NCBI GenBank assembly: GCA_038049695.1 | Contig: CP142451.1 | Span: forward strand, 6,632,001 to 6,696,000 | Direction of reading: 5' to 3' | Origin: Cinnamomum chago | Lineage: Eukaryota; Streptophyta; Magnoliopsida; Laurales; Lauraceae | DNA length: 64,000 nucleotides | Part shown: positions 8,477 through 52,579 of the stretch, in pieces | Numbering within the stretch: the stretch's first letter is position 1 | Layout of the letters: each line of letters opens with the position of its first letter | Notes under the pieces: model-generated | What the model was told of the DNA's origin: nothing | Database searches by the model: none | Seen by the model: only the letters and a program-made list of their open reading frames with translations | Translations under genes and position numbers: made by a program

Positions 8477-11400
8477 AGGCTTTGTTTTGAGTTAATTTGT
8501 TCCTTCAATCACTTTTTCTATCTAATTTTCTCACTTTTTATCAAGTTATTTTATTTTATTCTAAAATCCATTAAAACTCTATTTGATTACTAGTTATTAG
8601 TTAGATTCCGTATTTAAGATTTCTTTGATTCGGTTCCTTGTGGGTTTGACCCACACTTGCCACTGTCTCTTCACAGAGAGTTGTGCACTTGCATTATTAG
8701 TATTTTAAAGTTACAACAATCATGGACACCCATAAGGTCACATTTGAAAACCGAGTCCTTGAGGAAAAGATTTTAACTTTCCACAAAGTCGTAAAAGATC
8801 CAAGAAATTTTAACTTTCTGCAAAGTCATAAAAGACCCACTTTTGGAAATTTTAAATCTCAAAGGATTAGGCCATCTGAATAAGGATTCTCAGCTTTCTT
8901 CCCCTTAGCCCCCAGTGCATAGGAGCATGCAAAATCTGAATCCACAGATTCCTCACTTGTTATCAAACTTAACGAAAGGAATCCTTACCATACAAATCCT
9001 CAAAAAGGAAAACGCTATTTTAAAGCAGTGAAGAATGCTCAAATCTGTGGATTCCTAATTGTTAACCTATCAAGACCTTAAGTATTTCATTCCCGCCATC
9101 AATGGGGCTGTAAACAGGTCAGGTTTGAGATGGAACCATCTTGTATCTAGATCCAAGATCCATTGTTTAATGGATAGATCTAGATTTGGACATAGCCTAG
9201 ACCTTTCAAATGGATCCAATTTCATTTCCAACTTCAAGAGGTGGAAAGAGGGGGCGCACAAAAGGAGAATAGGATATATAATAGATTTTAATGAAAAAAT
9301 GATTTAGCGAGAGAGGGAGATATTTCAGAAAGTAAATAGAAATTAGAATATTTCAATAGAGTAAAAGAAGAAGATACTACCATGGATGAGTAAGGATTCC
9401 ATTTTGTTAAAAGCCCGAGTGTGGAAATTGCCCTTTGAGCATGGATGCAGTTGCGTTATCCAATATCCATTTCATTTTGCCTCTTTACCTCTTCTAAAAA
9501 TCAGGCCTTGAAAGAAAAGGAGAGATTGTAACGGTGGGAAACTTAGCAACAGGAAGAATAGAAAACAAAGAAAGAGATGTGTAAAAGAACAAAAGAGAAT
9601 GGCGGAGTCATTTATCCATTTCCAAAGGAGATGCCGCTTGTAATTGTTTATTTGTTGACGAGGCATACACTGAGCCATACATAGGAGTGCTAGCTATCAT
9701 CATTAAATCATGACGTTTACTCTATTTTTCTCTCTCCTATGAGTGCCGGATGTTTGAGCTACAACTAGGGATGCCAGTAGGTTGATTCGGAACCGAGATC
9801 ATGCTGGACCGAAACTGGACCGTTTTGTAAAGTCAAATCTAGTTCAGACTCGGAACTTGTTTTCGTCGTTCCAGAGCCGGTTCCATTAAGAGGAGTAGTT
9901 CCGACTTCTTTTTTTATTTTTGCTTGAAATAAGGATATCATTCAGCCAAAAAATCCGAAAAGGGATATCATCCAACCTAATAACAGTGCATTAGTCTACC
10001 ATCCGCAATTGATATATCCAAATATCTTAAAAACTAATTTATATATAAGTTGTTGCATGAAGTTTTTGACATTAGCCGATACAAAGTCAAACCATATCTT
10101 AAAAACAAATATCTACTGGTTGGGTCCCAGTCCACAAGTTGGGACTCGTATGGATTGAAACTGGACTTGTTTAGCAATCAGAAGTTAAATTGGGCTCTGG
10201 ATCCAGACTCATTTATGAAACGGAACCTAAATCCGAATAATTGGATATTCATTTGCATCCCTAGCTATAAGTAGAGGGTTCAATTATGGGTCATTAGGAT
10301 GGAACATGCATGGATTCAGAACTGTACCTAATTTCTTTCTAAATCCGAAAATAAGTTTCAAATTGGAACCTATTTTTTATCGGCTTAAAATTTAAGTTCC
10401 TTGTCTATTTTCGAGTTGGAGACATCCGATAATCGGATATATGTTTCAACCCTAGTCATCAAATCAAGGAAAGAGAGTACGTCCCCAATTAATTTAAAGG
10501 AATGGGCAGAGATACAAATCTTAAATCTCTTGTGGATCTCTCTTTACATGATCCATCTCGAAGTTGGATGTAAAGCCTGAAATTCTATAGAGACAGCAAC
10601 AGGGAGTTAGTCGACATTACTTTTTCCAGGAGTTAGGAGGTGGGAGAAAGTATATGGCTGAGTCATCCAAGTCAACTCAGCCCGAGTCTTGTTGGAAGTG
10701 GAAAGGTCAGTTTGGTAAGCAAGGATTTAAGGTAGATATAATGAGAAATTGACAAGTGGAGAGGGGTGTTGATAATGAAACATTGCATGGTTTGGAAAGA
10801 GATGAAAGCTATAGTGATTTGTATGAATTGCAATACTTACCCAAGGGAGGAAGTAATAATGGACGTTCCTTGGATTTTGCTATGGGCCTTTTAAAGGGAT
10901 AAGAACAATGGCCGGGGTGCTGGTGCATAACGAGGAGGGTGTGACAAAGGGACAGCTCTTTAAAGAGTCCTACATGTCTGTTCAGCAAGTGGGCCGCGAG
11001 AGGATTTCTTTCTATGTGATTTTCATTTTTCACTGTAGAGAGAAATCCTACATTTCTAGCCTTTACATTCAAAATGGAAATCCACTCTAACGAAGAAAAA
11101 TCAGTTGCTTTTTTCCCTTATTCTGAAAAAATTTGTATCGCACCAAATGATATAAAAAAGGGGTCCACACGGATAATCAGAATAATTTTCTTCTCGACCA
11201 CAATTCCTCCCTTTAACACAAACATAACCTTAACTCTATGATGAACATTTGAAAACACTGGTGGACCATATGGCCTAGCAAGATCAAGACCCAAGCATTC
11301 GTCCAAGATTTGAATTTTGTTCCAGGCAATTGGGCCTAACCCATGCATGAAGAATCTGAATCAGTACGTACCCGACCTCCTCATCCAGGGAATGTCCGAA

Positions 11401-11703
11401 ATATGCAAGACAGGAAACGCATCTTTTTGTGAGTTCCATCAGGGAAGGGGTCCCAAGATGGATGGTGGACTCATGATGACTATAGTCTAAACCAGAGGCC
11501 CAAGGCCCACAAATTATCATTTGAATTCCGTTCAAGTCTTCTTCTTATGTCTGAATCGGGGTCTATTCTTTGATCCAGATATACATGTTCCTCTCATTGT
11601 CAGATCCGGGCCAATACATTGGAATCCACATTGGATTCAGATCCAGGGAAGGATCCTGTCACTAAAAAACTATTCAGATCTAAGATACAAATGTTCATAT
11701 CCT
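8477..11703 (+). repeat. Segmental duplication, copy 2 (direct repeat of 138-2603)
   Basis: This is the longer copy of the segment at 138-2603 and ends about 350 bp upstream of the LysM start codon. It holds two extra stretches, near 8840-9200 and 10385-10745. The first contains an inverted pair of GAATCCACAGATT (about 8939-8951 and 9038-9050), possibly a MITE remnant. No LysM gene follows copy 1, so the duplication did not include the gene. Confidence 0.85.
9766..10263. mobile_element. Non-autonomous hAT-like element, copy 2
   Basis: Same element as at 1046-1582, with ends TAGGGATGCC and GCATCCCTA. The flanks GCTACAAC (9758-9765) and GCTATAAG (10264-10271) match at six of eight positions, which supports the 8-bp target duplication expected of hAT elements. 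There is no coding capacity. Confidence 0.75.
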
Positions 11704-11940
11704 TAGCCAATACCGACAGGTGTTTATGTTAAAGGAGATCTCTATCATCAGAATCAAATCACCAACAATGAGAAAATTCAAGAGTTTTTTTTTTCTAGTT
11801 TTAACCGCCTTAATTAAACTACACCTTGAGCTTAAGAGAATACAATACTATAAATACAATCATAAAATAATAGGAAGAAAGATGTGAAAATGCCGGCCTC
11901 TTTGTTGAACTCAGATAATAAAGATTCTTTAGTTTGGGCT

Positions 11941-14085: not shown

Positions 14086-15587
14086 ATGGTTTGAAATCAC
14101 GGTTCGCGTTCATCGCAGCCCATCGTAGAGCGAATTTTTATTTGACCCAAAAAAAATCTAAATAAATACCCAAAAAATTCAAAATATTATAAAATGATAG
14201 AAACTATTTTTTTTTTTATTACTGTACACTTTAAAGCAAAATAACGGTCCCCTCAAGTTATAACATCATGTATTATTGCTGTATCGAATATCGATGTATA
14301 TACTAAAAAAAGTTGAAATATCATAAATTTGACATAATGCAACTATAATTTTGGGCCAACTAATAGGGGAAAGGGTCCTGTAAGGACCTTACGGTCCTTA
14401 CAGTTCAAAATGCCCACTGGGGCCCACGTTATGACCCATCCAAATTGACCATACATTCACAACCTCCTTATAGACACCGAATCCCATGAATTTGCATGGA
14501 TTCGGATGAACTAGACCGTTAGATTGAGGGTCAATTTTTCTTGTTTGATATAAAGTTGTTAAACTTTTGGACTATAGATGAAAGGGTTAGAGGTATTAGA
14601 TTGACTTCAAATTTGATATGTAGGTTGGCCCCCACTTGAATCTTTTGGTCCCCCTCTGTCCCATGACCAGTGGGGTCTCACGGTGGGCCCCACTAGGCAG
14701 TCCGCACAGTAAGTTGTAAGGACGGTCCTTACAGGACCCTCCCAACTAATAGAGTTAAACATTTAAAGTCTACACTTTAAATCATAAGATTCACACTTTA
14801 TTGTTCCAAAAGTATAGATCTATTGTAAACTAACACATTATAAATGCATTTGAACACTAATTTGAAAAAATGTAAATGATATCAAGAACAGCCCCAAATT
14901 TTGAAAATAAAAAAAAGCTAGATCTACACCTTAAAATACTAGATCTAGAGAAAAATTAGTGAGTAACATCAAATCTAACTCAATATAAAGCCTTTGGTTC
15001 ATGTATTACACAATCTTTAAAAAAAAAAACCCTAAAATAATTCGGATTTAAATAATGAAAAAATAAAAAATATTACAAAAAGTGCTAAAACTTGAAATTT
15101 TTTGCTCCAAAAGTATATAGATCTAACACACCTCAAACATCTCTAAGTTATTATGATGTTGAATCTTGAAAATAACTCAAAAAAAAAAAAAAAAAGCTTA
15201 CCAAAGAGGTCCCTTGAGTTTGATTAGATTTCTCCACATACAAAATCTACTCAAAAGTAGCTTAGATCTAAATTTTTAGGTGCTCCTCCATGCTTTAGAA
15301 GTTGTAGCAGGCCTTAGGAAGGCTTATGAAGCTCTTAGAGAAGAAATACATTAAAAGAAGTGGAAGAAGAAGGCCAAAGAGAAGGGTTTTTTTTTTTAAA
15401 ATCCCGTCAGGCGTTATAATGGCTGTTATTTTCAAAATAACGGCCGTTATGGATCCCTTTTTTGTCGATATTTTACCCCGATATACATCTCGGCCATTAT
15501 ATTCATTATAACGTACGTAACGGTAATGGCCGTTACCATTACATAACGGCTGTTATGTAACGGTAACGGCCATTATTTTGAACGATG
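14086..15587. mobile_element. Non-autonomous Mutator-like element
   Basis: The ends are imperfect inverted repeats (left ATGGTTTGAAATCACGG; right, read in reverse, similar). The flanks are TGTACTCAC (14077-14085) and TGTACTCAT (15588-15596), a 9-bp target duplication with one mismatch, as expected for Mutator-like elements. The right subterminal zone (15400-15580) is full of short inverted copies of ACGGCCGTTA. No transposase is visible. Another Mutator-like element is nested at 14367-14741. Confidence 0.72.
14367..14741. mobile_element. MULE-type MITE nested in a larger Mutator-like element
   Basis: The termini contain GGGTCCTGTAAGGACC on the left and its inverted form on the right, over about 30 bp. 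The flanks carry a perfect 11-bp direct repeat CCAACTAATAG (14356-14366 and 14742-14752). The 375-bp body is non-coding. Its flanks sit inside the 14086-15587 element, so it inserted later. Confidence 0.82.
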
Positions 15588-17409: not shown

Positions 17410-17460
17410 CCGGATGTGAGGTCCCACCCTTGGTGGGCCCTCTAAGGGCTATTTTATAGA

Positions 17461-17570
17461 CTAATTAACTCTAATTTATGTTAATTATTGGTTAATTATG
17501 TTAATCTTTGCTAATTTCTTCTAATCTTCGCTAATTATTGCTAATCCTTGCTAATCTTGGCTAATTACTG
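17461..17570 (+). repeat. 10-bp phased repeat inside the solo LTR, about 11 units
   Basis: Eleven consecutive decamers fit the pattern YTAATYNNNG, with one single-base slip. TAAT recurs every 10 bp, close to one turn of the DNA helix. It lies 46 bp inside the 5' end of the LTR. Confidence 0.85.
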
Positions 17571-18986
17571 TTTTACTTGGGCTAGTTAGGGGCTAATTAG
17601 ATTGACTAGTTAGATTTCCTAAGTTAGTTAGATTAACTTAGTGGATTAGTGTTTTTAATTAATTGGGTGTTGTGTTAATCTTAGGCTTTTAGAGCTAGAT
17701 TAGCTTTTAGTAGAGTCTAATTAATTAAGCTAATTGGGTTGGGTTAGTACAAGGTGCCTTTCTAGAAGCTTCCTAACCAAATGACCTAGCCTACCCTAAC
17801 CCTAACCCTAATCCCATGAAAACCCTAAGGGTACTATGGTCCTTAATCTACTCTCTAAAACTATAAAAACCTCTCTTAACTCTTGCAAAACCCTAAACCT
17901 AATCTCAGCCCCCATCCCAAGATAACCTCCAGCCCCCTTCCCAAGGAAACCACTCCCAACTGCCTTCATTCCCTTCATTCCTCTCCTCTCCTCCCCTACG
18001 TTTGAGCTAAGAACCTTCACTGTTACTGGAATTCCATCTTGCTGCAAACTGTTGCTGTGTTCTTCTTCACTTCAGCTGGAGCAGCCACCCTTTCCCTCTT
18101 CATTCTCTTGCTGTTACTCTGCTGAAATTTCCCCTGGGCTGTTGCTGTCTTCTTCTACCACTTCTCCTTCATTTCTGTTTTGCTGGAAACCTCACCTTGG
18201 AGCTGCTGGAACCACCTCACTCTGCTGGAATTTCTTCTTGAAGCTCTGCTGCATCTCTTCTTCTTCTTCATTATTTCTGCTGGGCTGGTTCCACTCTGCT
18301 GGAATTTCCAATTGAAGCTGCTGTGACACCATCTTCTTCTTCTTTCTCTTCATTTCTCTCATCTGTACTTTGCTGGAATTTCTCTGAGAGTTATTGTTGT
18401 GCTGGAATTCTTCATAAAGGGGCTGCAGCTGCCATCTCTCTTCATATCCCCTTCTTCCTTCTCTCAATTCTCTCTGGACCACTGTTACTCTGCTGAAAAC
18501 TCTCCAAGGACTACTGCTGTTGCTGTTACTATCACCTGGGAGCTGCTACTACAGCAGCTGGGGTATCATCTTCTTCCTCTTCTTCACTGTTCAGCTGGAC
18601 TGGGTTCTGGACCTTCCTTTCTAGCTCTATTTCTCTCTACAACTCTCTCTCAAGCTATAGAGGCAAGTGCACCATACTGATAACTTAGATTGTATATTTC
18701 ATTTCGTGATTCAGTGGTTTTTCAGTTCATAAACATGCTCAGTTCAGTCTAGATTACATTTGAGCTCTGTTTTATAATTTTGGTTGAAAGGTCACTGATG
18801 GATGGGGGTTTTCACCCCCCATTTGGAAGATCAGTGGGCCATAAGGTGATGGATGGATGGTTTATGTGTTATTAATTGATTAGAAGTGTTTGGGAGGAGT
18901 TTGGAAGAGATTGGAGGTGGTTTGGGCGAAAAAGGAGCTGAAACGGAAAAGTTGCAGAAATGCAACTGGGACTGAAATCCCAGTGT

Positions 18987-19240
18987 GCTCGGTCGACCGA
19001 GCCCTGGCTCGGTCGACCGGCAACACTGCAAATCCAAAAATTTTGAGCCTCAGTTAAATTTCTGCAGTTTTTCCCTGACACGCCCGGGACTCGCCCGACG
19101 GTGTTCTAGGTCGACCGAGACCCCTCTCGGTCGACCGGGAACACTGAAAAATGGGAAAATGAAGCTCTCAGTTAGCTTCTTCTCTGCAGACTGTAACCCT
19201 GTTATCTGGGTCGACTGGGACTCACCTGGGTCGACCGAGA
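18987..19240. repeat. Paired GTCGAC-centred palindromes in the solo LTR
   Basis: GTCGAC occurs at 18992, 19012, 19110, 19130, 19210 and 19230, that is three pairs each exactly 20 bp apart. The first is the centre of a perfect 16-bp palindrome, GCTCGGTCGACCGAGC; the others keep 8-10 bp of perfect symmetry. Confidence 0.9.
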
Positions 19241-21379
19241 CAACTAGGTTTTTGATGAAAAATTGGTCATCAGCCATATTCTTGTAGAAAACTCATTTTA
19301 ATCAGTTTGGTTGACCCGGCTTAGCCCAGGTTGACCCGTTTACATGGTTTTCACTAGAAATGACTGAAAGTTGGTTTTTCACCCGAAATTCAGTCTGTTT
19401 ACGCCCAAATCAACCCGAAACTTATAATTAACATTTAGAAAGTGTTTAAAGCTGGATCATCAATCTTTCTAAGGTTTTCAGAGTATGCGGTCAATCACCT
19501 AGGCCTGGTTGTTTGACCGGACACGCTGTAAACCTTGAGAAACGATCTAAGTTGTCCAGGAAGCCTGACTCAGGTTTGTCAGTGCACTCGGTTGATCTTC
19601 CCGGCCAGGAAATCAACCGAGCTCACAACACATCAGGTTCACCTGGAAAACCCTGATTGTTCCAGTTTTCAACACTTAGGAGATATGATCAGTTGTGGGG
19701 CCCATTGACCATCCAAATGAGCGTTTATCAGTGTCCTAAGCCCGAGTCAACGGTGTGGCTCAACCTTGACTCGCGGGGACCACTGTTTAGAGTTTTGGTT
19801 GATAATCTAAGATGATTCGACCTCTAAGAGTTGTCATAGATGCCATTAACTAACTAAGCACCAAATACAATATTTTACGGCATTAATGACATCGTTTAGA
19901 GATCGAATTACCGGAGATAGACCCGAACCTAAAGTGGCCCATTTACCTAGGATTGGACCGTTGCTTTTCCCGTTGATTCTCTGATTGAAGTTTATACTTC
20001 ATTATTATTACTCTGTCATTCTTAGATCTTTAGATTAGCTGTTTGCTATTAATTAATCATAATTGGAAGACCTGAACCTAGGGTATCTAGAGGTGACCCG
20101 ACGGTGTGATTTCGGAGATCATTGACCCGTGTCTGTGTCTAGGCGGGCCCTTATTGGGCCTAAGTGTGGAGATGTGAACCCTTTAGCTGAAGAGGTAGTT
20201 TCTATTGGACTGTTAAGATGTTATGGATTGTATGGAACTGTTTGTCAGTAGTAGATGGATTGGTTGCCTCGTTTGGACGGTTTTAGACCAGGCCATGTAC
20301 TGATGGGCCTTGGTATGGATCCAACGAGTGGGCCTGGACCTTGAATGAGATCCAGAGACTATTTTGAGATGTGTAGACCTCTTAGAGATATTGTTAGGAC
20401 CTTGTTCACGCAAGGCAAAGCCTAGACAGACACAGACCTTAGAGTTATTCTCGAGTCGGCATGAACATTCACTCGGTTGATTTAAGCTCAGCCTGTGGAC
20501 TGATCATCCCCGGTAGGAGCTAGTTGAGTGTTGAGGAGCTATCATGATGAGCTGTGTGGTTAAGACGGCAAGGTGTCATACCGTGCCGATCTGGAGTGTT
20601 GAGATGATGAGTTGATGAGTGAGAGTCGGGATTAGTTATTCCCTGGTGAGATTCCCCGCCGCGACTGTGTTCAGTATGGGAGGGCCGCGGCATAATATCC
20701 CGCGGTATTCCAGCTCGTGTGAATGTGCCACCTTGTTGTAGTAGTTTAGTTGATTTCTATTTATACTGGTTCCTTATGATTTAAATGCACAACTGCCTAG
20801 TTCTTTTCCCTTGTTATTCATTTAACTTATGTACCCGTCTTTATTTTCCCTTGATATATATATGCTATGTTAGTAGTATGCTGTATCTTGCCAGATCGTT
20901 TAGATCTGACACATTCTATGGTGCTTAGGCCTTGACCCAGAGATTCCCGACGACGCATTAGCCCTAGTGGAGGCACCCGTGGCAGGAGAGTACGCTTGGG
21001 GCCCGGCCGACACGGACGTCGAGCCGGAGGGCGAGGAGTTCATACCAGGGTTTTGAGGGACTTCGTTATTTTGGGTTTTTTAGAGATATTCTGTAGTGAG
21101 AAGGGTAGAATGAAAATGTATAACCTTGATTAACATTGAATCATTTTAATAGACTATGTTTTGCTCACACTTAAATTTATATCTCGATACTATTGCTTCC
21201 GCCTTGTTTAAATCGTTATGCTTCCGCAATTTAAATATTATAACTCTATTGGTCAAAAAGTTTTAAATTGGACCTCACTGCGGCCTACGATCTTGGAAGT
21301 TCTCGGATTTTCCGGGAAGTAGCGCGCCAATTTCGGGTAATCGAACGAGTATATCGGTATCCGGAATTGGGGCGTTACA

Positions 21380-24839: not shown

Positions 24840-25640
24840 GCGCCACCGCAAATGAAATTGGCGCCTTATTTTGTTGGCCGAAATATTTTCGTCTTTCATA
24901 ACTTATCCTTATTAGTGACGAATTACGTTCGTCGCAAAAACAAATTATATTTTGTAACAAAAATGTTCGTCTTCAATGAACTAAAATAATTCACTCCAAC
25001 GCAAATGAAATTGGCACCTTATTTTGATGACCAAATATTTTCGTCTTCCATAACTTATCCTTATTAGTGACGAATTACGCTCGTCACATAAACAAATTAT
25101 ATTTTGTAACAAAAATGTTTGTCTCTAATGAGCTAAAATAATTCGTGCCAAAGCAAATGAAATTGGTACCTTATTTTGGTGACGAAATATGTTCGTCTTC
25201 CATAACTTATCCTTATTGGTGACAAATTACGTTCGTCGCAAAAAAAAATTATATTTTGTGACAAAAATGTTCGTCTCCAATGAGCTAAAATAATTCGAGC
25301 CAACGCAAATGAAATTGGTGCATTATTTTGGTGACTAAATATTTACGTTTTCCATAACTTATCCTTATTAGTGACGAATTACGTTCGTCACAGAAACAAA
25401 TTATATTTTGTGACAAAAATGTTCGTCTCCAATGAGCTAAAATAATTCGCGTCAAAGCAAATGAAATTGGCGCCTTATTTTGGTGACGAAATATGTTCGA
25501 CTTCCATAATTTATCCTTATTGGTGACGAATTACGTTCGTCGCAAAAAAAAAATTTATTATTTTTTGTGACAACAATGTTCGTCTTCAATGAGCTAAAAT
25601 AATTGGCGCCAACGCAAATGAAGTTGACGCCTTATTTTTG
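24840..25640 (+). repeat. ~153-bp tandem array inside the CACTA element
   Basis: Five units begin near 24845, 25000, 25154, 25304 and 25457, with a partial sixth at 25613. Each starts CAAATGAAATTGGYRCC and contains AACTTATCCTTATTRGTGAC and AATGTTCGTC blocks. The array lies next to the right end and is made of the same GACGAA-type motifs as the subterminal repeats. Confidence 0.9.
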
Positions 25641-41061: not shown

Positions 41062-42518
41062 TGATGAGAGCCTAAAAGATACATTTTAGGCCCCTCAATG
41101 AGGACTTGGTTATACTGTTGGTTGAGATTAATTAGTTTAATTATGTTATTTTATTGTTTGTAGGTACTACTGATATAAGAAGCGAAATTCAAAGTTAAAA
41201 TGGAAGAAACATCGCAAAGCATAACAAACCGAAATTGCAAGTGAGGAAGCATGCCAAATATGGGAAGAGACTCAAATAATAAAGCAAAGCAAGAGTCCAA
41301 ACATGCCTTTAACGTCCAATATGGGTCCTAGTCACCCCCTAGCATGCCAACATGGAAGTTCCTAATTTAGTTGCACGATTATTCTCGAAATTTTCAGGGG
41401 CATCAAGTTGAAATGGTTATAACTTTCAACTCGAGGGTCGGATTAGTGAAATCTATATACCACGTTGGAAAGCTCTTTTCAAGTAGATATCCGTGGAGTC
41501 CAAGATTGTATAAATCGGAGCTATGTCGAGGGAGATATGAGCTTGGGAAGTTCGCTATGATGACCAGTACACACTATGTCCTGGCGTCCGGACGCCCGGC
41601 CACAGCAAAAACCCAGAGGCCACTGCCTCCGAGCGTCCAGATGCCTAGTATGGGGCGTCCGGACGCCCGGACCGGATGGGGACACCGCCTCTCCGCGTTT
41701 TGAAGGGGTTTTCTAGCCCAAAAGTCTATATAAAGCAAACCAAGACTCGTTTTGAAGATATACACATCTTGGGAGAAGGTCTGGAGCAAGGTTTTGGAGT
41801 TTTTTTAGACACATCCATGGGGATTTCGTCAGAGATTCTTCGTCAACCTCTTACCATGCGTAACTAAATTTTTATCTTTGGGTTGCGATGAAGCTCTAAT
41901 CTCTTGTTTATGGTGATGCATAGGTTTAGGGTTTTATTTTAAACGCTTTTAGTTATATGACAAGATGTTAATCCATTAATTGGATTTTATTAATGCAATT
42001 TCTTTTTCTTTGGTATTTTAATCTTGTAGATTTGAATACTAAGTTATATAATGATACTTGAATGAATGTGTTTGTTAGATCTAGGATAATCTATGCCATA
42101 GAGATAGGTTATGCCTCGATTTACATCTACATCCCTTATTTGTTGACTTTGAAGGTTTGTAACCAGGACGAGGACGAGTCTCTATAGCGTTGACAGTGAA
42201 ACCCTAGGCCTATACTTGCCATTGTGCGGGGTTAGAGTGGATTAATACCCTGAGATCTTTTCTTTGATTGAATCAACCATGTCTTTTAATTTGTTAATTT
42301 AGAAATCAAAACTCATCAACCCAACACTTTATTTTTTAATAGGATTAGTTTAATAATCAGAACTTCATTTTCTAATAGGATTAGTTTAATAATCAGAACT
42401 TCGTTTTCTAATAAGAATAGTTTAGGAATTTAGGAAACAACACAACATAGCCTTTTTGTTTCAGTGGATACGATACTCGGCTATTATCTTTGCTTTTGCA
42501 AATAGAAAATCAATCCCA
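41062..42518. mobile_element. Solo LTR or LTR fragment, probably Ty3/Gypsy type
   Basis: The segment interrupts block X between GGAAAA and an A-rich stretch; the paralogous block at 53898-55220 lacks it, which bounds it well. It starts TGATGAGAGCC and ends near AATCCCA. A core TATA region (TCTATATAAAG near 41727) and the run 'agtggatacgatactcggc' before the right end are typical of long LTRs of some Gypsy lineages. No internal genes lie nearby, so it is a fossil remnant. The 5' and 3' flanks give at best a 4-of-5 target duplication (GAAAA/AAAAA). It contains TCCGGA-centred palindromes at 41583-41670. Confidence 0.65.
41583..41670. repeat. TCCGGA-centred palindromes in an LTR
   Basis: GGCGTCCGGACGCC occurs at 41583-41596 as a perfect 14-bp palindrome and again around 41654-41667. 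A one-mismatch relative (GCGTCCAGATGCC) is centred 22 bp before the second copy. Confidence 0.88.
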
Positions 42519-42601
42519 AAAAATAAAAACAAAAAAAAAAAGAAAGAAAGAAATGCCTATTAAAGAGAAACATAGCCATCTGTCTCTTCCATTAATTGGG
42601 C

Positions 42602-42695
42602 TCCTATATACATGATTAACCTTAAGGTCTGTTTGTTTGCTGGAATTCCTATATACATGATTAACCTTAAGGCCTGTTTGTTTGCTGGAATTCCA
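42602..42695 (+). repeat. 45-bp tandem duplication at a MITE end
   Basis: TCCTATATACATGATTAACC and the following CTTAAGG.CTGTTTGTTTGC are present twice, at 42602 and 42647. The unit spans the junction between host sequence and MITE end. Confidence 0.9.
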
Positions 42696-42960
42696 AGAAT
42701 TCTTGTATAGAGAATTCCTGAATTTCCAGACAAAGTGGAATTATATTCCTGGATGCCCCTTTGAGCTTGAGAACTCAGGAATTCGAAGTGGAATTTTAGA
42801 TTCCCAAAAGTCAAAAGAGACCTTTCATGTGATTGGAATTTAGAAATGCTAGTAAAGAAATATGGAATTCAGAAATTTCAAGAAATAGCCTGTCACATCA
42901 TGTCCAGAAATTCTTAGACATTGTGAATTCTTGGCAAAAATTCCATTTAAGAAACAGGAC
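42671..42960. mobile_element. MITE, perhaps PIF/Harbinger-like
   Basis: The left end GGCCTGTTTGTTT and the inverse right end AAACAGGAC are short inverted repeats; CTTAA flanks both sides. The paralogous site near 54233-54250 lacks the insert, confirming it as an insertion. Inside are inverted GGAATTC-rich segments. The superfamily is not certain from the ends alone. Confidence 0.6.
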
Positions 42961-43125
42961 CTTAATATCACAAGCTAAAATTTGTGATATTTATAGAAGA
43001 ATCCAACCCCATTCCACAATTCCAGACCCCACGTGCTACAAAACCTACACAAAACAGGCCTATATGATCATTGGGCACAAGTAAAGAGATTCAAGAATTG
43101 CACTGCTAACTACATTCCCATGAAA

Positions 43126-43280
43126 AACGTAGGATATGATCAATTTAAGAAAGAATATACCAAGAAATCTTAAATTTAAACTCATCCTTACGTATGAAGA
43201 TAACGTAGGATATGATCAATTTAAAAAAGAATATACCAAGAAATCTTAAATTTAAACTCATCCTTACGTATGAAGATAAG
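43126..43280 (+). repeat. 76-bp tandem duplication
   Basis: The unit AACGTAGGATATGATCAATT and its downstream sequence to CGTATGAAGAT occurs twice in tandem with one or two differences, in the 3' flank of the gene at 43422. Confidence 0.93.
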
Positions 43281-43421
43281 GAATTAATATCTCTACTACT
43301 ACTAACCATTCCTACTATATTTATCGTATACATGAAAAAGTTTTCAATAACAAACCCAAAGAATTTTTTTTGAAACAACTAAATTGGCAAGCCTTATTTT
43401 CAAAAGAATGAACAACCTCAA

Positions 43422-44123
43422 TCACTTCTCTCCCACAAGGCACCAATCCTCATCCTCAACCTCATTACCCCTCCCACACGAACTAACTCCATCAAAATCC
43501 ATATCATAATCATCATCAGTTTGGATCTCACTTGGGCTAATCCTCACCATCTCTTCTACGCCAATCGATTCTGCATCTTCGAAAGTGGATCGTTCGTCGT
43601 CGTTGATATCTTCATCAGCATCATGATCATCACTTGGGATAAGCCTCGCCGTCGATTTTGCATCTTCGAAAGTGGACCGTTCTTCATTGATATCTTCATG
43701 ATCATCATGATCATGACTTGGGCTAATCCTCACCGTCTCTTCTACAATTGGACTAATCCTCATCGTCTCTTCTGCATCGATCGATCTCGCGGTCCACCTT
43801 TCTTCGCCAATATCTTGGACAGCATGATGATCACCATAGTCAATCCCATCATCCATATCATCTCTATAACATCCAGATAGACTACTCAATAGCCCAGTTG
43901 CAGATACCCCATTATAGTTCTGGCCCACTCCCTTATTTACAATCCTCAATGCTGTTGACTGTGGATTCGTGGCCGAATCACTTGATCTGAGCTTCTGGGT
44001 CTCCTTGGCCTTTTTTCTGGACTTGGACACTGGGAGATTGTGACCCTCCATGAACATGGGCAGGGAATCTTTCCTGATGAAACTTGACAGCGTGGATGAT
44101 GGCTTTGGGCAAAATCTGGGCAT
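43422..44123 (-). CDS. Uncharacterised acidic plant protein, degenerate paralogue A
   Basis: A 233-residue open frame, homologous to the gene at 54507-55223. Shared blocks are KAKETQKLRS, NKGVGQNYNGVSATGLLS, SLSGCYRDDMDDGID and the C-terminal EDEDWCLVGE. The C-terminal half is very acidic and contains repeats of the form DEDINxxERSTFEDA. Unlike its partner it lacks all five cysteines of the N-terminal motif (for example VSKSRK against VCKSRD). The region matching the partner's first ~30 residues is still open upstream but has no ATG, so translation could only begin at the internal ATG 44123. This suggests a decaying or shortened duplicate. I know of no assigned function for this family. Expression is uncertain. 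Confidence 0.6.
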   Translation of the reverse strand: MPRFCPKPSSTLSSFIRKDSLPMFMEGHNLPVSKSRKKAKETQKLRSSDSATNPQSTALRIVNKGVGQNYNGVSATGLLSSLSGCYRDDMDDGIDYGDHHAVQDIGEERWTARSIDAEETMRISPIVEETVRISPSHDHDDHEDINEERSTFEDAKSTARLIPSDDHDADEDINDDERSTFEDAESIGVEEMVRISPSEIQTDDDYDMDFDGVSSCGRGNEVEDEDWCLVGEK

Positions 44124-44216
44124 CGGATGTGAGTCAGATTCGTTGAGGATCTTGCCACTGTGGGTTGAAATCCATCTTGATGGTTTGAGATCCCTGGAAC
44201 TAACTAGTCCACGTTG

Positions 44217-45344
44217 ACGTCCTTTGTTACTTGTTAGTCATCTATCTTCTTTCTTTGCAATGGCTTTTCTTACTGTGATAATAAAAGATGAATAAGACCT
44301 CGAGTGGCGGACCAAGGATTTTGACTTGGAGGGGGCCTTAAGATAGTCACTTGCAAAAGTCAATTGCTATTTTATTGGTATTTCTAAACATTAACTTTTG
44401 CAAAAGAGAAAATGTCTTGCATTTACAAAATGTGGAATTACATGATCAACTAACATTTTATCATCAAAAGTCATGATCACCTAATTACAAAAGATTTTCT
44501 TTAGCAAAAAAAACCAACAAACCAACTCTGTCTCCACTGGTTTGGACTCTGGAGAGTTCCAATGGCATGCCTACCAACTCTGTCTCCACTGGTTTGGACT
44601 CTGGAGAGTTCCAATGGCATGCCTGTTTGGATCAAGGATACACTCATACACAACATCTGATTCCAAATTCCACTAGCCCTTGAGGAATGTGATAGTGGGC
44701 CCCACCTTGAACATGATCACACCCGTCAAAATTTCACTCATGCATGAACCATGAAAACCCCCTTGGCCAAAGTGGGTCCCAGAGAGGAGATCACCTATTG
44801 GGTGTATGAACAACCCTTTTCAACCTTTGTGAGGCCCACCATCATGATCAATCCCACTTAGCAACTGAATCTGGGAAAATTTTCTCACATACACCAACGG
44901 ATCGATCAGATTTCTCTGCTAGAGCTTTGATCCATGACCAAGTACATCACTCCCTGAAATTTGGGCCACTGCTTATACGTGGATAGGAATATGGATCAGA
45001 TAAGGGTGGGTCCGCATGTTAAGAACACCTGTTAGCATCCATCAGCACTATTGCAAAACAAGGGCCATTTCTACCGTGACAAACTGGCAATGAACAAGGC
45101 TAAGATAAAATATTCGGGCATGTTTGGATGAGTGGAAAAGGTGGAGAAATAGAGGTTGAGAAAATCAGAAAACTGCAGACAGTTCAAATTGTGTTGTTTT
45201 CTTCACACGTTTCATTCTCTCTTCCAAACAACCCCACAGAGAAAATAAATAAGAAGTTTTTCCCACCTACTTCTCCAACCATTATCTCTTCTGAATGTCC
45301 CTTGCATTGGCATTGGGATTGGGTATCTAACAATCACATGCTCC
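44217..45344. other. Intergenic with 53-bp tandem duplication
   Basis: At 44520-44625 a 53-bp unit starting CCAACTCTGTCTCCACTGG occurs twice almost identically. The rest, rich in 'gtgggcccc' stretches near 44690-44830, looks like transposon debris with no defined ends. No gene seen. Confidence 0.6.
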
Positions 45345-45535
45345 AAGGAAAAACAAACATTGCTTATTTGTTTTCCAAGAGAACAAACATGATTTCATTG
45401 TCTTTACCAAAGGAAAAACAAACATTGTTTATTTGTTTTCCAAGAGAACAAACATGATTTCATTGTCTTTACCAAAGGAAAAACAAACATTGTTTATTTG
45501 TTTTCCAAGAGAATAAGCATGGTTTCATTGTCTTC
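45345..45535 (+). repeat. 65-bp tandem repeat, three units
   Basis: Units start at about 45347, 45412 and 45477 with GGAAAAACAAACATTG and contain TTATTTGTTTTCCAAGAGAA and TTTCATTGTCTT. They are nearly identical, so the array is young. Confidence 0.93.
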
Positions 45536-45898
45536 TTTTACCAAATGAGAGAGAGAGAGAGAGATATGAGCACATGACCTGCCGCCTGCCGGAGTGAGGG
45601 ATGGCGTCGTGCCGATGCCAGTAGCCAATAGCCTGAGATGGGGATTTTTGAGATGTGGAGGGAAAGAGATGAGAAACAGAGAAAGGGGTTTACAGTTTAC
45701 TGTGTTTAGGTTAAAGTGCAAGGGGTATTAAAGGAATCGTGGGGACAGGGGAGTGGGGACTTGGGCTGCTTTTAACTGGGGGCTGGGCTTAAGGGCCCAT
45801 TTGCGCTTTTTTCCAATTTGGAGGGGGCTTCAGCACCCAGCCCAGTGCATGTGGGTCCGCCACTCCCCAGCAAATCCGGATCCCACTTAAATTTGAAT
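45536..45898. other. Intergenic, nothing recognised
   Basis: A short (GA)n run near 45547 and GC-richer sequence without a supported gene. Confidence 0.5.
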
Positions 45899-45970
45899 CG
45901 CAATAAATGCATAGGATTAATAATGCATATTAATGTGCTAATCACGTTGTTAATCATATATATATATATA

Positions 45971-46125
45971 AACTCCGAGGGGTAGCTCAATTGGCGTAGG
46001 ACCACGGTTTGCACCCGGAGATTATGAGTTTGTGACTGTTCTACTACACTGGGATCATAGGGGAATTTTACTTGGCTTTCTCTCCTGGATCCGTAGGAAT
46101 TATTTTAATCCAAAGAGCTGAGAAC
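45971..46125 (+). mobile_element. tRNA-derived SINE, second copy
   Basis: Same family as 37390-37558, here on the plus strand: GAGGGGTAGCTCAATTGGCG with a pol III A-box, then ACCACGGTTTGCACCCGGAG, and an end near AGAACCCTACATACG. The flanks are TA-dinucleotide runs, so the target duplication cannot be read. Copy B of block Y has no insert at the corresponding place. Confidence 0.82.
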
Positions 46126-46418
46126 CCTACATACGTTAACAAATATATATATATATATATATGAACATGTTTACAAGAGAGTTCTAACAGCAATAATTGA
46201 AACTCTCAAAGAATAAAGAATTATGTATGATATAAGGTACACCTGTATAACAAATATCTCTAGCTTGCAAACTGCCTAAAAGTGGCCAAGAAATCCGGTA
46301 GGATTCTTTATCTTACAAGATTTTGATTCTCTTTCTTTATTGGTCTCATCCAGTCATCCCCGGTCAACATGGATGGAACAAGAAAATGATCTAGGTAATG
46401 GGCTCTTTAGGTTATAAT

Positions 46419-47941
46419 TAGGGATGGCAACGGGGCGGGGCAGGGCCAGAATTGGGCTGCCCCGTTCCCGCCCCGAATTTCCCTGTCCCCGCCCCGCCCC
46501 GCAATTCGGGGTATGTTACATACCCCGTCCCCGCCCCGACATGCCCCGCGGGGCGCCCCGCCCCGATGTGGTATAATAATAAATATAATAAATAAATTTT
46601 GAATTGACTATAAAAAAAAGGTAAATTAATTTATTTTACATGGTAAAAAGCACATGAATGATTCATCTATGTTGTCTCTATGCCTTTAATAATATTAAAA
46701 AAAATCTCCCAAAATAGAATAAAAAGATCTCCCCGCATAAATATTTTATAAGTGTGGGGCACTGTTAGATTGTTTAAATTTTTTAAAATTATCTAAAATT
46801 AATAATATAAATTTTCCTTTTCCTGAAATTTTACCTATTTAAAGTGAGATTTTATTCTTATAAGATTTTCTCTAAGCCCTTGAAGGCCACTAACATACAC
46901 TTGAAAATATCATATATGCTTTGAGACATTCTTTATAAAAAAAGACAATATCTCTCTAAAATATCATGAACTCCATCAATACATGGTTTCACTCCATTTC
47001 TGGTATTGAACTGACTACATAATATATGTTCCAATTTTCCCTCAACAAGCTTACACAACTTTCCATGGTGTGGGCCCCAACCATATGCATACCAACCACA
47101 GGTAAGAAAAAGATTCGAAGATCTTAACGAGAATCAAGTCGAATCAAAATTATTAATAGTTGATGGTCAAATATCATTAAATCTCATTGATTTGGCAGGA
47201 ACCTCACTTTAAGACCAATGAACTCCACTTACTAATAAAGAGGTTGATTACATATAATTAAAATTAGTATAATTTATAGTGTTGTTAGTATGATTAGAAT
47301 CATATTAAGTTACTAACTATAATTTACTTTGCTATTATAAGTTACTATAATTTACTTTGCTATTAAAGCATGATCCATCATTCTATTATATATTTATATT
47401 CGTTTTATTTAATATGATTTATCTTGTCACAATTTAACATTATATATGATTAAAGTAAAATAAGCTTAGATAGATTTTTTAACAACTTTAACTTCATTAA
47501 ATTTGAATTAGAGGGAATGGGATCATATTATATGCTTTTATAATGTCACATTCAATTACATGTTTAACTTTAAAAAAAGTCTTCAATCAATCTACTTAAC
47601 CCTTAATAACAATATAAAATCAATATATACATTTATATTTAAATATGTTTATTTATTATAAAAGAAATCAAATATATATTTATATTTTAGAGGATTATTA
47701 ATTTTGGGGCGGGGCATGGGGCGGTATTTCGGGGAGGGGCATGGGGTGGTATTTCGGGGCGGGGCATGGGGCGGGGCAGCGGGGCGGGGCAAGAGCCATA
47801 CCCATCCCCTTCCCGCCCCGGATTCGGGGTATGGTTTTTTCCCCGTCCCCGCCCCATCTAAGAGTCGGGGCGGGGAAAACCCGTACGGGGCGAGGCGGGC
47901 ACTTCGGGTTGGGGCGGGGCGGGTTAAAAATGTCATCCCTA
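46419..47941. mobile_element. Non-autonomous hAT element with perfect 8-bp target duplication
   Basis: The ends are TAGGGATGGCA and TGTCATCCCTA. GTTATAAT flanks both sides (46411-46418 and 47942-47949). The paralogous site at 53127-53134 has one copy of ATTATAAT and no insert, a natural empty site. Subterminal zones (46428-46580 and 47700-47935) are extremely G/C-rich with repeated GGGGCGGGGC; the middle is AT-rich and non-coding. Confidence 0.93.
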
Positions 47942-48010
47942 GTTATAATAGCACATATAAGCCCTGTTGAATCCAATGGGTCAACAGGCCAAATGGACCC
48001 GGGCCACCTA

Positions 48011-49140
48011 ATGTTAAAAAGCTATGGTCCAGCCCGTATAAGTGGAATATTAAGAATTGCACGTCTTCGAGTTGTCCCACTCCCTCTTCTTCCTATTTTG
48101 AGTTCCTTGTCTTAATAGAGCAAGTGAATGAGTCAAAAAATCACAGAGAAAATCAAAGAGCAAATTATTATATATTATAGGTGTAGGATTTAATTTTGAA
48201 ATTGGAGTTCGATTTCGCAATTGATAGAGAAATCAACTTCCAATTTTGCAATTGATTGAGAGATTGGCCTCCAAATTTAGATAAATTTTAACTAATATAA
48301 AGAGTCCAATTTAGAGAGAAGTTTCAAATTTAAATTGATTTTAACTAATCTAAAGAGTCTAATTAAAATCTATCTCTACTAGGTTTCCTATATTGTAACA
48401 CAACTACAAAACGTCTCTTCAATTTTTCTTTCACTTTGGATTAGAGATTAGAGATTAGTGATTAGAGAAATAGTTGTTAGTTTAGCTATTCTAATTCTCT
48501 TAAAAAAAATAAAGACATGTTTATGGATCTAAAAGGCTGGATCCAGCCCCTGGGTAACAATCTGAGTCTAAAATGGTCCTTGGACTGGCTATGGGTGGGA
48601 AACCAAATGCCTCACTTTACTTCTGCATGATAAGAAGAGGCTAGCCAATCTCAGATTGAGCTTGACTTGAACCCCAAATAAGAATTAGGTTAATGTGGGT
48701 TTGGGTTTTATTGTCGGGGTTTTGTATTAAGAAAATCGGGTTAGGGACTTGGGATTAGAGGGCTAGTGATTAGAGATTAAAGAAAGGAGATTGGAGATTA
48801 GGCATCATAAATTAGGATTAGTACTTTGGGATTAGAGATTAGTGATTAGAGAAATAGTTATTAGTTTAACTATTTTAATTCTATTGATAAAAAATCAAGA
48901 CATGTTTATTGATGTAAACATGGTACTTGATCTAAACATGTTTCATATAAGAAAAATATCAGTGTAATAAACACATGGTTAAAAATCAAAATTAAATAGA
49001 TATGTTTTAGTGATAATGGATAAATTGCCAACTTGCTTAAAAAAACTTGATCAATTTCACAGTGGGACTTATTTTATGATGTGAATTTTGTTTATCCTAC
49101 TTGGTTTGGAATCGCAGAATGTCACTGAGCACCACCTAGG
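48011..49140. other. Intergenic with dispersed duplicated stretch
   Basis: An ~85-bp stretch starting near 48441 (GATTAGAGATTAGTGATTAG, then AGACATGTTTAT) recurs near 48835. No gene supported. Confidence 0.55.
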
Positions 49141-49483
49141 GATCTATCAAGAGATGTCAAATGGGCCAGGCTGGGTCATTTGAGCCCGACCCATTTGAGC
49201 ACGGCCCGAGCCATGGTCTGTGCTGGGCCGAGGGAATGGGCACGGCCAGCCTGTTTCAGTAAGGCCCGCTAGGCACAACAGGCACGGCCCACTTGGCCCG
49301 CCCAGAAATGGCTATTTTTTTTTTAATATTCATTTACACCCCCCCCCCCAAACCCCAATAGCCATAAAATGGTCATATAAGGGGTACTTTGTGTCCTTTT
49401 CAATTTTAAAAAATCTATAAATACTCTAACCCTCCAATTCTTCTCAGTGGAGTAGGCCAAGTTTGACCGAACCACTTAAATAT

Positions 49484-52400
49484 TGTAAGATCCCGTCTCA
49501 AGTGACATCGATTAGTGATAATTAAGTTGTATTTTAGTTCTAAGCGTGTTTAGTAGATTTTGATTTATTGGGGAATAGAATAGCTTCTTTTATAGTTTTG
49601 GGGAATTTTGAGTGCTTTTATAACTAGTGGGGCCCTTTGGGGGTTCTTTTTGTGACTTTGCATTTATTTGAGGGTTTATATGAGATTTTTGTGTTTATTG
49701 TTATAATCTCGTTTTACTTTTCTGGTTAATCCCTACAACTTTTATGTTGATCCCGTGCCCATTCGAGACCTCGAAACCCTACTTTCCTAGCATTGAGGGC
49801 AAAACAGTCATTGTGCACTAAATCTGTACCAAAAAATTTGATATACCAGAAACCCGTGAAACATATACTTTTTGGAAACTAGATATTTCGACGATCACTT
49901 TTCTCTTCTTCATCGAATTCGTTCGAGGCCCCGATAGACATGATTTCAACCCACAAAGGTTTTTAGTGGTGGAGCCCACTCCCCACTTGTTTTATAAGGA
50001 AACCCTCATTCCTCATTTCCTTTTTCTTTAGTTCAACTCCAATCTCCAACCTAGGGTTTTCCCTTTTCCCTTTTCTTCTTGCTCTTCCATCTCCCAATCC
50101 ACTACCAAAACTTTGTCATTGGAAAAATGCTTGTCATCATCTTCTTCCTCATCACCATAGCTTTCTATTGATACCATTTGTGGAGGAGACCACCTACTCC
50201 AAGACCTCATTTGGAACTAACCTAGCATTTTGAAGAACTCTCATGTAAGTAATCATTCCCCTCTTTTGATATTGTGTTCTCCTAGCCTAAAGGAATCTCC
50301 ATTTCCATTATGGAAGCTTCTTCCTCCCCATTCTATGTTTTGACTCTTTTAGGGTTTTGTTTTGGGGGTTTTTGCTTGTAACTTGGACCTTTGGCTTGGA
50401 AAGCTTGATTAGAGCTTGGATTGCCTGTTAGAGACTCTAAGGCAAGTGGATGAAATTATAGTTTGAGCATTTAATGGTTTTGTGAAGAATATCGTTGGTT
50501 TTGTTATTCATGTTCATATTCATTAGCTTGCATTGATTTGAAATAAATGCTCATTAAAAAGTTTTGCTAACTCATTTATTGCAATGGAAAGGTGATTTAT
50601 AGTCTTTCATTTATGTCTTGATTTTAGCAAATGAATCCTTATGTATGGTGGTTTCCTTTTATCTTTGTCTTATGGTGGAATGAGGTGAAGAAGATGGAGG
50701 TTTAATGAATGTTTATGGATGTTTCTACGGTGTTTTGGATGATGTTTGAATGGATTTTGAGCCTCCCATTTTGATGTAGAAATGAGGCTCAAAGAGTATT
50801 GTAAGAAGAGGAAAAGGAGAAGAGAAGAACTGTCTCGGAACCAGTTTCTGGACAGTTCGCTCGAGAGAACTTGGCAGGTCGCTCGAGCTAAGTGTCCAGA
50901 AAAGGGTTCGAACCATTCCAGAGGACAGTTTGCTCGAGCGAACCTTCCCAGAACTCATTCCAGAAAGTGGTTAGCTCGAGCGCACGGATTGTTCGCTCGA
51001 GCCAACTCGAACTAGACGAGTTCGCTCGAGCGAACCCTCCTAGAAGACCATTCCAGAGACCACCTCGCTCGAGCGAACTCTCCGGTTCGCTCGAGCGATG
51101 TACTCTGTCGGTCAAGAGCTATGTTTTGGACAGTGATGAATTGTTTAAATGTTTTGAGAATATTCATTGAGAACCCCTTTATGTCAGAAAGATTTACTAG
51201 GCAATGTATGAGGCCATTTGAGAAAGAAACCACATCACGAAGATTTCATTTGAAGTTTTGAGAATCCTAAGGTTTATAAGGAGTCCGGAATGTCCCCAAA
51301 CTCAAAGAGTACCAAGTTGTTATTAAATCGACATACAAGACCCCTATTCACCTTAAATAAATCTTGAACCCCGATACTTGTCTTGAGATTTCGAAAGTTC
51401 ATTTGTATTTCATTATTCCCAAATTTCTTATGCATCCCGAAAATATTGAAATTGAAATTGTAGCATTTTGCTAATCTCGACAAGCATTTCCCGATTAATA
51501 TGACAGTTGTGCCTTTGAGCGCCCCGTCCCGTTTATTTATGTACTTGCACTTGATGTATTTCATGCATGTTTTGATCTTGTCGTTTGACCTATGAGTCGG
51601 CGCCACTAAGTTTGGATAACCCTGTTGGTCTGATCCACCGACTTGGAGATCCCCCTCTTATCACGCCAGTTGCAGTTTGGATCCCGCTACCCGGTTATTA
51701 CCGTGGTCTTGTCCTGATACCCCGGATTGCTATCGTGGTTCTCGATGCCCGGCTCGCTACCATGGTCATGTCCCGTATATTATATATATGTATATATATT
51801 TCGTTGTTTCTCCTCACCTTGTGTGACTGAGATCAACGCCTTGATATTACTCTATCACTTTGGTGATAGAGGACTTAGCTTCGTATGGTTGTCATCTTAC
51901 TTGTTTTCCGTTTCCTTGGTTACCTTTACATGGTTTACAACGCATACTTGTATTTGAATAAATGATTTATCTTTTTTATGAAAATTGTTATTTAAACAGG
52001 TTTAAATGCTTTTGAAGGTAAATTCATTTATTGTTATATTGTTATGTCTCTTCACCCATTTGCCAAACCGTCATGTTTGACCCACTCTTTGGTACTCAGG
52101 TCCGGATATTGCTTATCCCGAGGCGGAGCTTGAGGACGCGGTCGGTGAACCGCAATGCCTAGTCGAGTGGCATGCTAATGATGTCGTTTAGACATTTGAT
52201 TGCTTTGAGAGACATAACATTTTGGGAACGTTTAACCATTCTTTTGGGGATTGGTATTTTGTTTATATTGGTCTTTGTTGGCCTCTATTTTGGGGAATGT
52301 AACTAAATGATCTTTTGTATAAACTTTAACTTTTCTTTTGGGAAAGCACTAATGATCATTGCTCATTCTGATACTCGGTTTATATATGTATTATTATTTT

Positions 52401-52579
52401 GTGACATGACTTGAATTATCAATTTGATTTGCTACATGCTTCTGCATTAAAAGAAATATTTATGCTGTTGTGATATTCTTACCGCAGACACCTGTGGAAA
52501 ATTAATTAAACAAACACACATCATCAATGAGTCTCAATCCCGGATTAGGATCTCGGTAGCCCGGTCCGGGGTCGCGACA
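49484..52579. mobile_element. Solo LTR with perfect 5-bp target duplication, probably Ty3/Gypsy
   Basis: It starts TGTAAGATCCCGTCTC and ends GGTCGCGACA. AATAT flanks both sides (49479-49483 and 52580-52584), so this is one complete LTR of about 3.1 kb left by recombination, a fossil without internal region. Inside are CTCGAG-centred palindromes (50853-51099) and a GC-richer block near 52100-52190. The length suggests a Gypsy lineage with long LTRs; the family is inferred. Confidence 0.9.
50853..51099. repeat. CTCGAG-centred palindrome cluster in solo LTR
   Basis: CTCGAG occurs at 50860, 50882, 50933, 50975, 50996, 51025, 51068 and 51090. Several sit in GTTCGCTCGAGCGAAC or close variants, a 16-bp palindrome. 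Three pairs are spaced 22, 21 and 22 bp. Confidence 0.92.

Follow-up and report, generated by a model that had tools for sequence, protein, structure and literature searches.

Paired palindromes 20–22 bp apart in long terminal repeats of Ty3-type and Sirevirus-like elements of Cinnamomum chago

The window, a stretch of 64,000 nucleotides of the Cinnamomum chago genome (C1:6632001-6696000), comes from a 1.06-Gb assembly of 14 contigs, of which twelve measure 57 to 134 Mb and the other two are 708 kb and 153 kb long. It contains three groups of short palindromes with the cores GTCGAC, TCCGGA and CTCGAG, which lie in long terminal repeats (LTRs), or a candidate LTR, of retrotransposons. A sequence-only reading of the window had described these as one palindrome design with different cores in three otherwise unrelated LTRs, repeated in steps of 20–22 bp, and all three groups are present where it had placed them. 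Stretches sampled outside the window carry L labels. The features in the window are as follows.

17415–21379, forward strand: probable solo LTR of a Ty3-type element with the GTCGAC array; TG...CA ends and four of five target-duplication bases; matches the LTR in L016.
18987–19021, no strand: first GTCGAC pair, centres 18994 and 19014, with CAGTGT...ACACTG flanks; folds as one hairpin that includes the outer flanks.
19105–19139, no strand: second GTCGAC pair, centres 19112 and 19132; one palindrome is missing in L016 through a 20-bp indel.
19205–19239, no strand: third GTCGAC pair, centres 19212 and 19232.
41583–41668, no strand: TCCGGA palindromes, centres 41589 and 41660, with a decayed copy at 41638.
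41726–41735, forward strand: TATA-like sequence CTATATAAAG, identified by eye; the last TCCGGA centre lies 66 bp upstream.
49484–52579, forward strand: probable solo LTR of a Ty3-type element with the CTCGAG array; 5-bp duplication AATAT/AATAT; matches the LTR in L022 at 73–80%.
50854–51100, no strand: CTCGAG array with eight centres, 50862, 50884, 50935, 50977, 50998, 51027, 51070 and 51092.

The six GTCGAC sites, which have the form CTCGGTCGACCGAG or are near variants of it, have centres 20, 98, 20, 80 and 20 bp apart. Only one of them (18987–19002) is a perfect palindrome of at least 12 bp, the other five being imperfect. The related LTR in L016 sits between Ty3-type pol reading frames, and a profile scan of open reading frames, ten of which were covered, found Ty3-type RVT_1, RNaseH, integrase and Tf2-1-like SH3 domains in L016. 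Directly after this LTR is TGGTATCAGAGC, which we take to be the primer-binding-site motif. The indel of 20 bp between the two LTRs takes out exactly one palindrome of a pair; when the conservation of palindromes and flanks is compared, identical columns number 73 of 96 in the palindromes, inside which the indel falls, and 257 of 325 in their neighbours. L005 and L001 also align by BLAST, at 77%, with the window LTR in its second half. The ratio of observed to expected CpG is 0–0.13 in the five bins before the array, 0.93 in the array bin and 0.41–1.26 from there to the end of the LTR; since it stays raised up to the LTR end, the array marks one border only.

The TCCGGA group consists of a perfect 14-mer (41583–41596) and a perfect 16-mer (41653–41668) with centres 71 bp apart, and it is the decayed copy at 41638, retaining 11 of 14 letters, that gives a 22-bp step to the centre at 41660. 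No convincing end was located within the window for the element that starts at 41062, which is therefore a candidate LTR only, and the group did not pass the strict cluster screen described below. The CTCGAG sites, TTCGCTCGAGCGAA, are spaced at 22, 51, 42, 21, 29, 43 and 22 bp, with perfect palindromes at 51020–51035, 51065–51076 and 51087–51098. The related element in L022 encodes gag, RT-RNaseH and integrase and is Ty3-type; a chromodomain match (E 0.00056) falls below the Pfam cut-off. The region of L022 that matches the array keeps one clear CTCGAG palindrome (8102), the full array being that of the window copy.

The earlier description of the window thus stands in part. The groups are real, but only one GTCGAC, two TCCGGA and three CTCGAG palindromes are perfect over at least 12 bp; steps of 20–22 bp occur in all three groups (20 for GTCGAC, 21–22 for CTCGAG and 22, by way of the decayed copy, for TCCGGA); and the regions starting at 17415 and 49484 look like solo LTRs, whereas that at 41062 lacks a convincing end. 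BLAST found no match of at least 40 bp between the GTCGAC and CTCGAG LTRs of the window, yet the pol residues of their relatives L016 and L022 are 71% identical, so the description of the LTRs as unrelated holds only in part. LTRs of related Ty3 elements therefore carry different cores, and a switch of core within a single lineage and convergence are equally likely.

The clustering of palindromes was examined in 244 kb, comprising the window and 18 ten-kb stretches at hand-chosen round-number positions on C1–C12, against simulated first-order Markov (dinucleotide-model) sequences, which are not exact shuffles. A strict screen for at least three similar near-palindromes with unlike flanks gave 14 clusters, compared with 0 in each of 10 simulations; a double count in L009 and a tandem copy in L020 reduce these to 12 separate places. 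Within the window the screen recovered the GTCGAC and CTCGAG groups and a cluster with the core CGGCCG at 15443, where four near-palindromes like ATAACGGCCGTTAT lie within 130 bp (15443–15569). The 11 clusters outside it comprise seven with GTCGAC (two being tandem copies in L020), one with CTCGAG in L021, one with CCGCGG and two with AAATTT in L009 that amount to one cluster. With looser settings the screen yielded 59 clusters, including 25 AT runs, where the simulations averaged 3.8; an LTR of L009 then also showed a GTTAAC group. Perfect 16-bp palindromes, simple AT runs aside, numbered 22 compared with 3–5 in the simulations. At L009 5836–6113 five palindromes of the type AGATAAATTTATCT lie between two LTRs that are 86.5% identical, one of which carries GGTTAACC sites. 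Close to Ty1/copia genes, at L006 3296–3360, palindromes of the type TTTTCCGCGGAAAA have spacings of 22 and 42 bp. This CCGCGG array was rejected as an LTR feature, as the stretch expected to hold its counterpart, L053, gave no BLAST match, so that the array is probably outside an LTR.

The spacing was then counted over the whole genome as pairs of the same motif with centres 10–40 bp apart (12–42 or 14–44 bp for longer motifs), the control being the motif pattern read backwards, which has no CpG and is not exactly matched in composition. GTCGAC gave 46,296 pairs against 4,287 for the control, and 38,817 of these, compared with 368 control pairs, are at 20–22 bp (10,454 compared with 53 at exactly 20 bp); at 24–29 bp there were 3,466 and 705. 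The peak was also seen in individual places, 45 of 68 pairs among the matches listed being at 20–22 bp, although the places listed here and below come mostly from contig C1. CTCGAG gave 22,560 pairs against 5,567, with 14,257 against 1,271 at 20–22 bp and 671 against 404 at 24–29 bp; among the matches listed 30 of 50 are at 20–22 bp, with a second mode at 31–33 bp (11 of 50). Three further motifs, making four besides GTCGAC, peak near the same distance. For GGTTAACC there were 2,382 pairs compared with 82, with 31 of 50 among the matches listed at 20–22 bp and a further mode at 12–15 bp (15 of 50). For CGTCCGGACG there were 82 compared with 0, with 45 of 50 among the matches listed at 22 bp, two at 21 bp and three at 41–44 bp, and for TTTCCGCGGAAA 249 compared with 0, with 48 of 50 among the matches listed at 22 bp and two at 42 bp. 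The 249 CCGCGG pairs look like one family, judging from spacers that are near-identical where their letters are listed. The bare core TCCGGA was rejected as a genome-wide signal, with 2,420 pairs against 4,646 in the control, and only the longer CGTCCGGACG is enriched. With that restriction, the expectation that symmetry and pair spacing recur while the core changes, with a genome-wide peak at 20–22 bp for several cores, was borne out.

To describe the sites themselves, near-identical copies were removed, leaving 81 of 114 GTCGAC and 50 of 56 CTCGAG sites, and near-identical pairs were likewise removed for covariation between pairs. In the 81 distinct clustered GTCGAC sites GGTCGACC is nearly fixed: of the 162 arms, 149 have C at ±4. 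Further out, departures from the commonest letter are more often one-sided than matched (31:9, 28:20, 29:11 and 35:17 at ±5 to ±8), the pattern expected of a binding consensus, and at ±9 agreement between the arms is below the shuffled level. At positions 9–14, reading outward, ACACTG is favoured, with no symmetry around single palindromes; the preference belongs to the outer sides of pairs, where in 46 distinct GTCGAC pairs A, C, A, C, T and G are found in 59, 62, 71, 73, 61 and 66 of 92 arms. The two strands of the genome hold 6,659 and 6,734 copies of the resulting composite, CAGTGT-N3-5-CGGTCGACCG-N8-16-CGGTCGACCG, with 0 for the control, and among the matches listed 35 of 64 carry CAGTGT on both outer sides. 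The outer flanks of 10 GTTAAC pairs are similar to those of the GTCGAC pairs, and by this likeness the GTTAAC pairs seem to be that module with its centre changed. No flank of the ACACTG type was shown by 23 CTCGAG or 8 TCCGGA pairs.

Palindromic boxes of this general kind are known from Sireviruses, so a named system for them exists, although the sequence-only reading knew of none. The Sirevirus repeated-motif (RM) boxes, published by Bousios et al. in 2010 with cores that differ between elements, are palindromic and clustered in the LTR (PMC2829016, available part, as for the particulars that follow). All but one have a CGG-CCG signature; they form CpG islands shortly before the TATA box, occur in eight or more copies per element and were called Sirevirus-specific in a Ty1/copia study, the RM box of the Vitis Sirevirus being CGGTCGACCG. 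Sireviruses also have several polypurine tracts, the last joined to the AT/TG at the LTR start (PMC2829016, available part). Two of the sampled stretches resemble this description. L018 has seven and L020 five copies of GGGGGAG before GATTGTTA, which corresponds to several tracts with the last joined to the LTR start, and both carry a GTCGAC array inside the LTR. In L018 there are four CGGTCGACCG sites, fewer than the published minimum of eight, the last centred about 33 bp before TATAAAG; both the CGG-CCG box near TATA and the position of the array before TATAAAG are as in the published Sirevirus LTRs (PMC2829016, available part). Neither L018 nor L020 gave a copia polymerase match at E 1e-5 with one copia query, and the sole domain match in L018 is an open reading frame with a zinc knuckle, for which reasons they are labelled here Sirevirus-like.

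The window arrays share some of these properties. The GTCGAC sites have the CGG-CCG symmetry, but the relative L016 is Ty3-type rather than a Sirevirus, the sites number six rather than at least eight, and the TATA-like sequence, identified by eye, is 1.1 kb upstream of the array rather than a short distance after it. The CTCGAG sites have neither the CGG-CCG signature nor a Sirevirus host. The GTCGAC core is common to LTRs of Ty3 elements (L016 and, by LTR similarity, the window LTR and L005) and of Sirevirus-like elements (L018 and L020), contrary to the idea that each family has a private core. The only match that BLAST reported between L020 and the window LTR is about 50 bp at 86–89% around the array, for which module exchange or convergence on one protein are both possible. 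A match of a GTCGAC LTR in L014 to the CTCGAG LTR of the window was considered as a case of core switching and dropped, as it seems that a Sirevirus-like LTR begins within one of the CTCGAG type. LTR-element units also stand head to tail with 99.8–100% identity in L016, L018, L020 and L013 (offsets 6951, 5705, 4924 and 7699), and four composites are found 5,345 bp apart at C1:18723986-18740061, which suggests tandem arrays of LTR elements.

With a probability of about 0.5, we propose that the arrays are cis-regulatory modules of LTRs read by dimeric DNA-binding proteins, binding being predicted from the form of the sites. Sites of about 16 bp with dyad symmetry, many of them paired at 20–22 bp, or about two helical turns, between centres, would be bound by dimeric proteins of the host, and the bound protein may activate the LTR promoter or prevent its methylation. 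The arrays would then be the same kind of thing as the Sirevirus RM boxes, here in Ty3-type elements too, with single palindromes probably gained and lost in 20-bp steps and lineages presumably swapping one core for another while the layout is kept. Since hairpin formation between two palindrome copies is possible whatever their distance, the narrow spacing favours a protein–DNA geometry, and together with the invariant core and the one-sided tolerance of the arms it favours a protein bound to one side of the helix. The place of the L018 array before TATAAAG and the match with L020, reported by BLAST only around the array, speak for it as well. Several observations weigh against this proposal. 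The arms within a GTCGAC site agree above the level of shuffled arms at ±5 to ±8 (p 0.005–0.028), and CTCGAG arms covary more, both within sites (z 2.7 and 3.3 at ±5 and ±6) and on the inner side (2.4 and 2.9), with the strongest covariation in the outer arms of the 23 CTCGAG pairs (z up to 4.8); the outer arms of the 10 GTTAAC pairs also covary (z up to 3.5). Five chosen segments fold far better than dinucleotide shuffles, by 4.1 to 7.2 standard deviations. In both Ty3-type LTRs of the window the TATA-like sequence, identified by eye, precedes the array by 0.9–1.1 kb. Families with many copies are counted repeatedly in the genome-wide pair counts, and the backward control for CTCGAG is itself uneven, with 1,271 of 5,567 pairs at 20–22 bp. 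Relative to the pair spacing at 10.5 bp per turn, the long spacings of GTCGAC are about one third of a turn off and those of CTCGAG are not; these spacings, taken after half of L020 and eight loci that overlap or are duplicates had been removed, are non-random, but their phasing was rejected as support because it is confounded by relatedness and pair structure.

Folding and outer-arm covariation speak instead for the main alternative, a possible, though distinctly less probable, role of the arrays as RNA, in which hairpins in the transcript would give rise to small RNAs that silence the element, as proposed for maize Sireviruses. The CAGTGT...ACACTG flanks would lengthen such a stem, CAGTGT being on both outer sides in 35 of 64 composites among the matches listed, and palindrome clusters of maize attract small RNAs (PMC5311732 and PMC10760457, in the parts available). 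The spacing of 20–22 bp is not what pairing of palindrome copies predicts, however, the array of L018 is upstream of a TATA-like box, and the inner arms of the 46 GTCGAC pairs show little covariation beyond the consensus (z −0.6 to 2.1). Covariation as proof of structured RNA was rejected, being weak for GTCGAC and clearer for the outer arms of CTCGAG and GTTAAC; because subfamilies differ it is indecisive, as those differences could produce it and so would a stem. That the cores differ between LTRs of related elements would also suit arrays that are targets of an anti-silencing or regulatory protein encoded by the element, its specificity drifting with the core, much as the motif arrays of the VANC protein differ between related VANDAL transposons (PMC5735166, available part). 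This seems unlikely given that Ty3 and Sirevirus-like elements alike carry the GTCGAC module, which points to a host protein or to module exchange, and that the VANC motif has one orientation, the word 'palindrom' being absent from the main text of that paper. The indel that separates the window LTR from L016 would be expected if the spacing were a by-product, without function, of tandem duplication of a 20–22-bp unit by replication slippage. We consider this equally improbable, as in the 46 distinct GTCGAC pairs it is the palindromes and their spacing that recur while the surrounding and spacer sequence varies, and the spacing recurs with other cores, though the GTTAAC pairs seem to be a variant of the GTCGAC module and the CCGCGG pairs a single family.

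Returning to dimeric proteins, a wider and more tentative extension is that, in this genome, LTRs of more than one superfamily are acted on by a shared system that reads dyads. The composite module, made up of CAGTGT and a palindrome followed after about two helical turns by a second palindrome and ACACTG, would have been exchanged between Ty3 and Sirevirus-like elements or reached independently by both, the cores GTCGAC, GTTAAC, CTCGAG and TCCGGA would be switched to change the partner protein or escape recognition, and the geometry of the protein would fix the 20–22 bp.

The remainder of the window and of the sampled stretches contains repeats of other kinds. Between 46421 and 47945 in the window GC-rich GGGGCGGGGC runs lie at both ends, with the termini AGGGATGGCAAC and GTCATCCCTA seen by eye, perhaps marking a non-autonomous DNA transposon. 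A tandem repeat with a period of 152 bp extends from 24879 to 25634. The stretches 138–2608 and 8477–11704 are similar, at 86–93% in pieces and 8.3–9.1 kb apart, and are possibly the LTRs of one old element. The whole of L011 consists of satellite-like units of about 324 bp in a higher-order repeat of about 4.2 kb, and a satellite-like tandem repeat of 1,596 bp covers L008 2756–10000.

RM boxes are a described hallmark of Sireviruses, and the same module and core are here in Ty3-type elements of one genome. A spacing rule that holds for several cores turns this into a testable question, namely which protein or RNA pathway reads the symmetry and not one fixed sequence, and a further one is whether retrotransposons trade or switch palindrome sites to remain active or unsilenced. 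The pattern of paired palindromes is also a simple means of finding such regions in other plants. A limited literature search, with subscription papers mostly outside it, gave no arrays in Ty3 LTRs, no 20–22-bp pairing rule, no core with flanks of the CAGTGT...ACACTG type common to Ty3 and Sirevirus-like LTRs and no related Ty3 elements with differing LTR palindrome cores; for GGTCGACC there was no plant-LTR title among the matches listed, and the search for Lauraceae gave nothing.

Among the known systems, VANDAL transposons have short-motif arrays in non-coding parts, dense and differing between related families as do those described here; the VANC motif, YAGTATTAY, is in one orientation, however, and the protein is encoded by the element, so that the analogy is one of working only (PMC5735166, available part). 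The long Ty3 LTRs of Del elements also have a variable CpG-rich segment, a plastic CpG island at the 5' end that may, it was suggested, offer silencing a moving target (Cruz et al. 2014, PMC4029996, available part), although 'palindrom' has 0 occurrences in the main text and the eudicot Del elements of that study are without the island. The LTR palindromes of maize Sireviruses, described as small-RNA hotspots (Bousios et al. 2016, through the available parts of the citing papers PMC5311732 and PMC10760457), likewise form a palindrome-rich, fast-evolving LTR region with strong predicted structure. Maize Ty3 elements, on the other hand, are generally without a structure peak (PMC10760457, available part), whereas Ty3-type LTRs carry the arrays here. 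The closest likeness is to the Sirevirus RM boxes, which are palindromic LTR boxes with differing cores and have the motif CGGTCGACCG in common with the arrays of this genome. These arrays differ in being found in Ty3-type LTRs as well, in having CTCGAG sites without the CGG-CCG signature, and in the 20–22-bp pairing and ACACTG flanks, which are not mentioned in the available part of PMC2829016. The design of palindromic LTR arrays is thus partly already known from Sireviruses.

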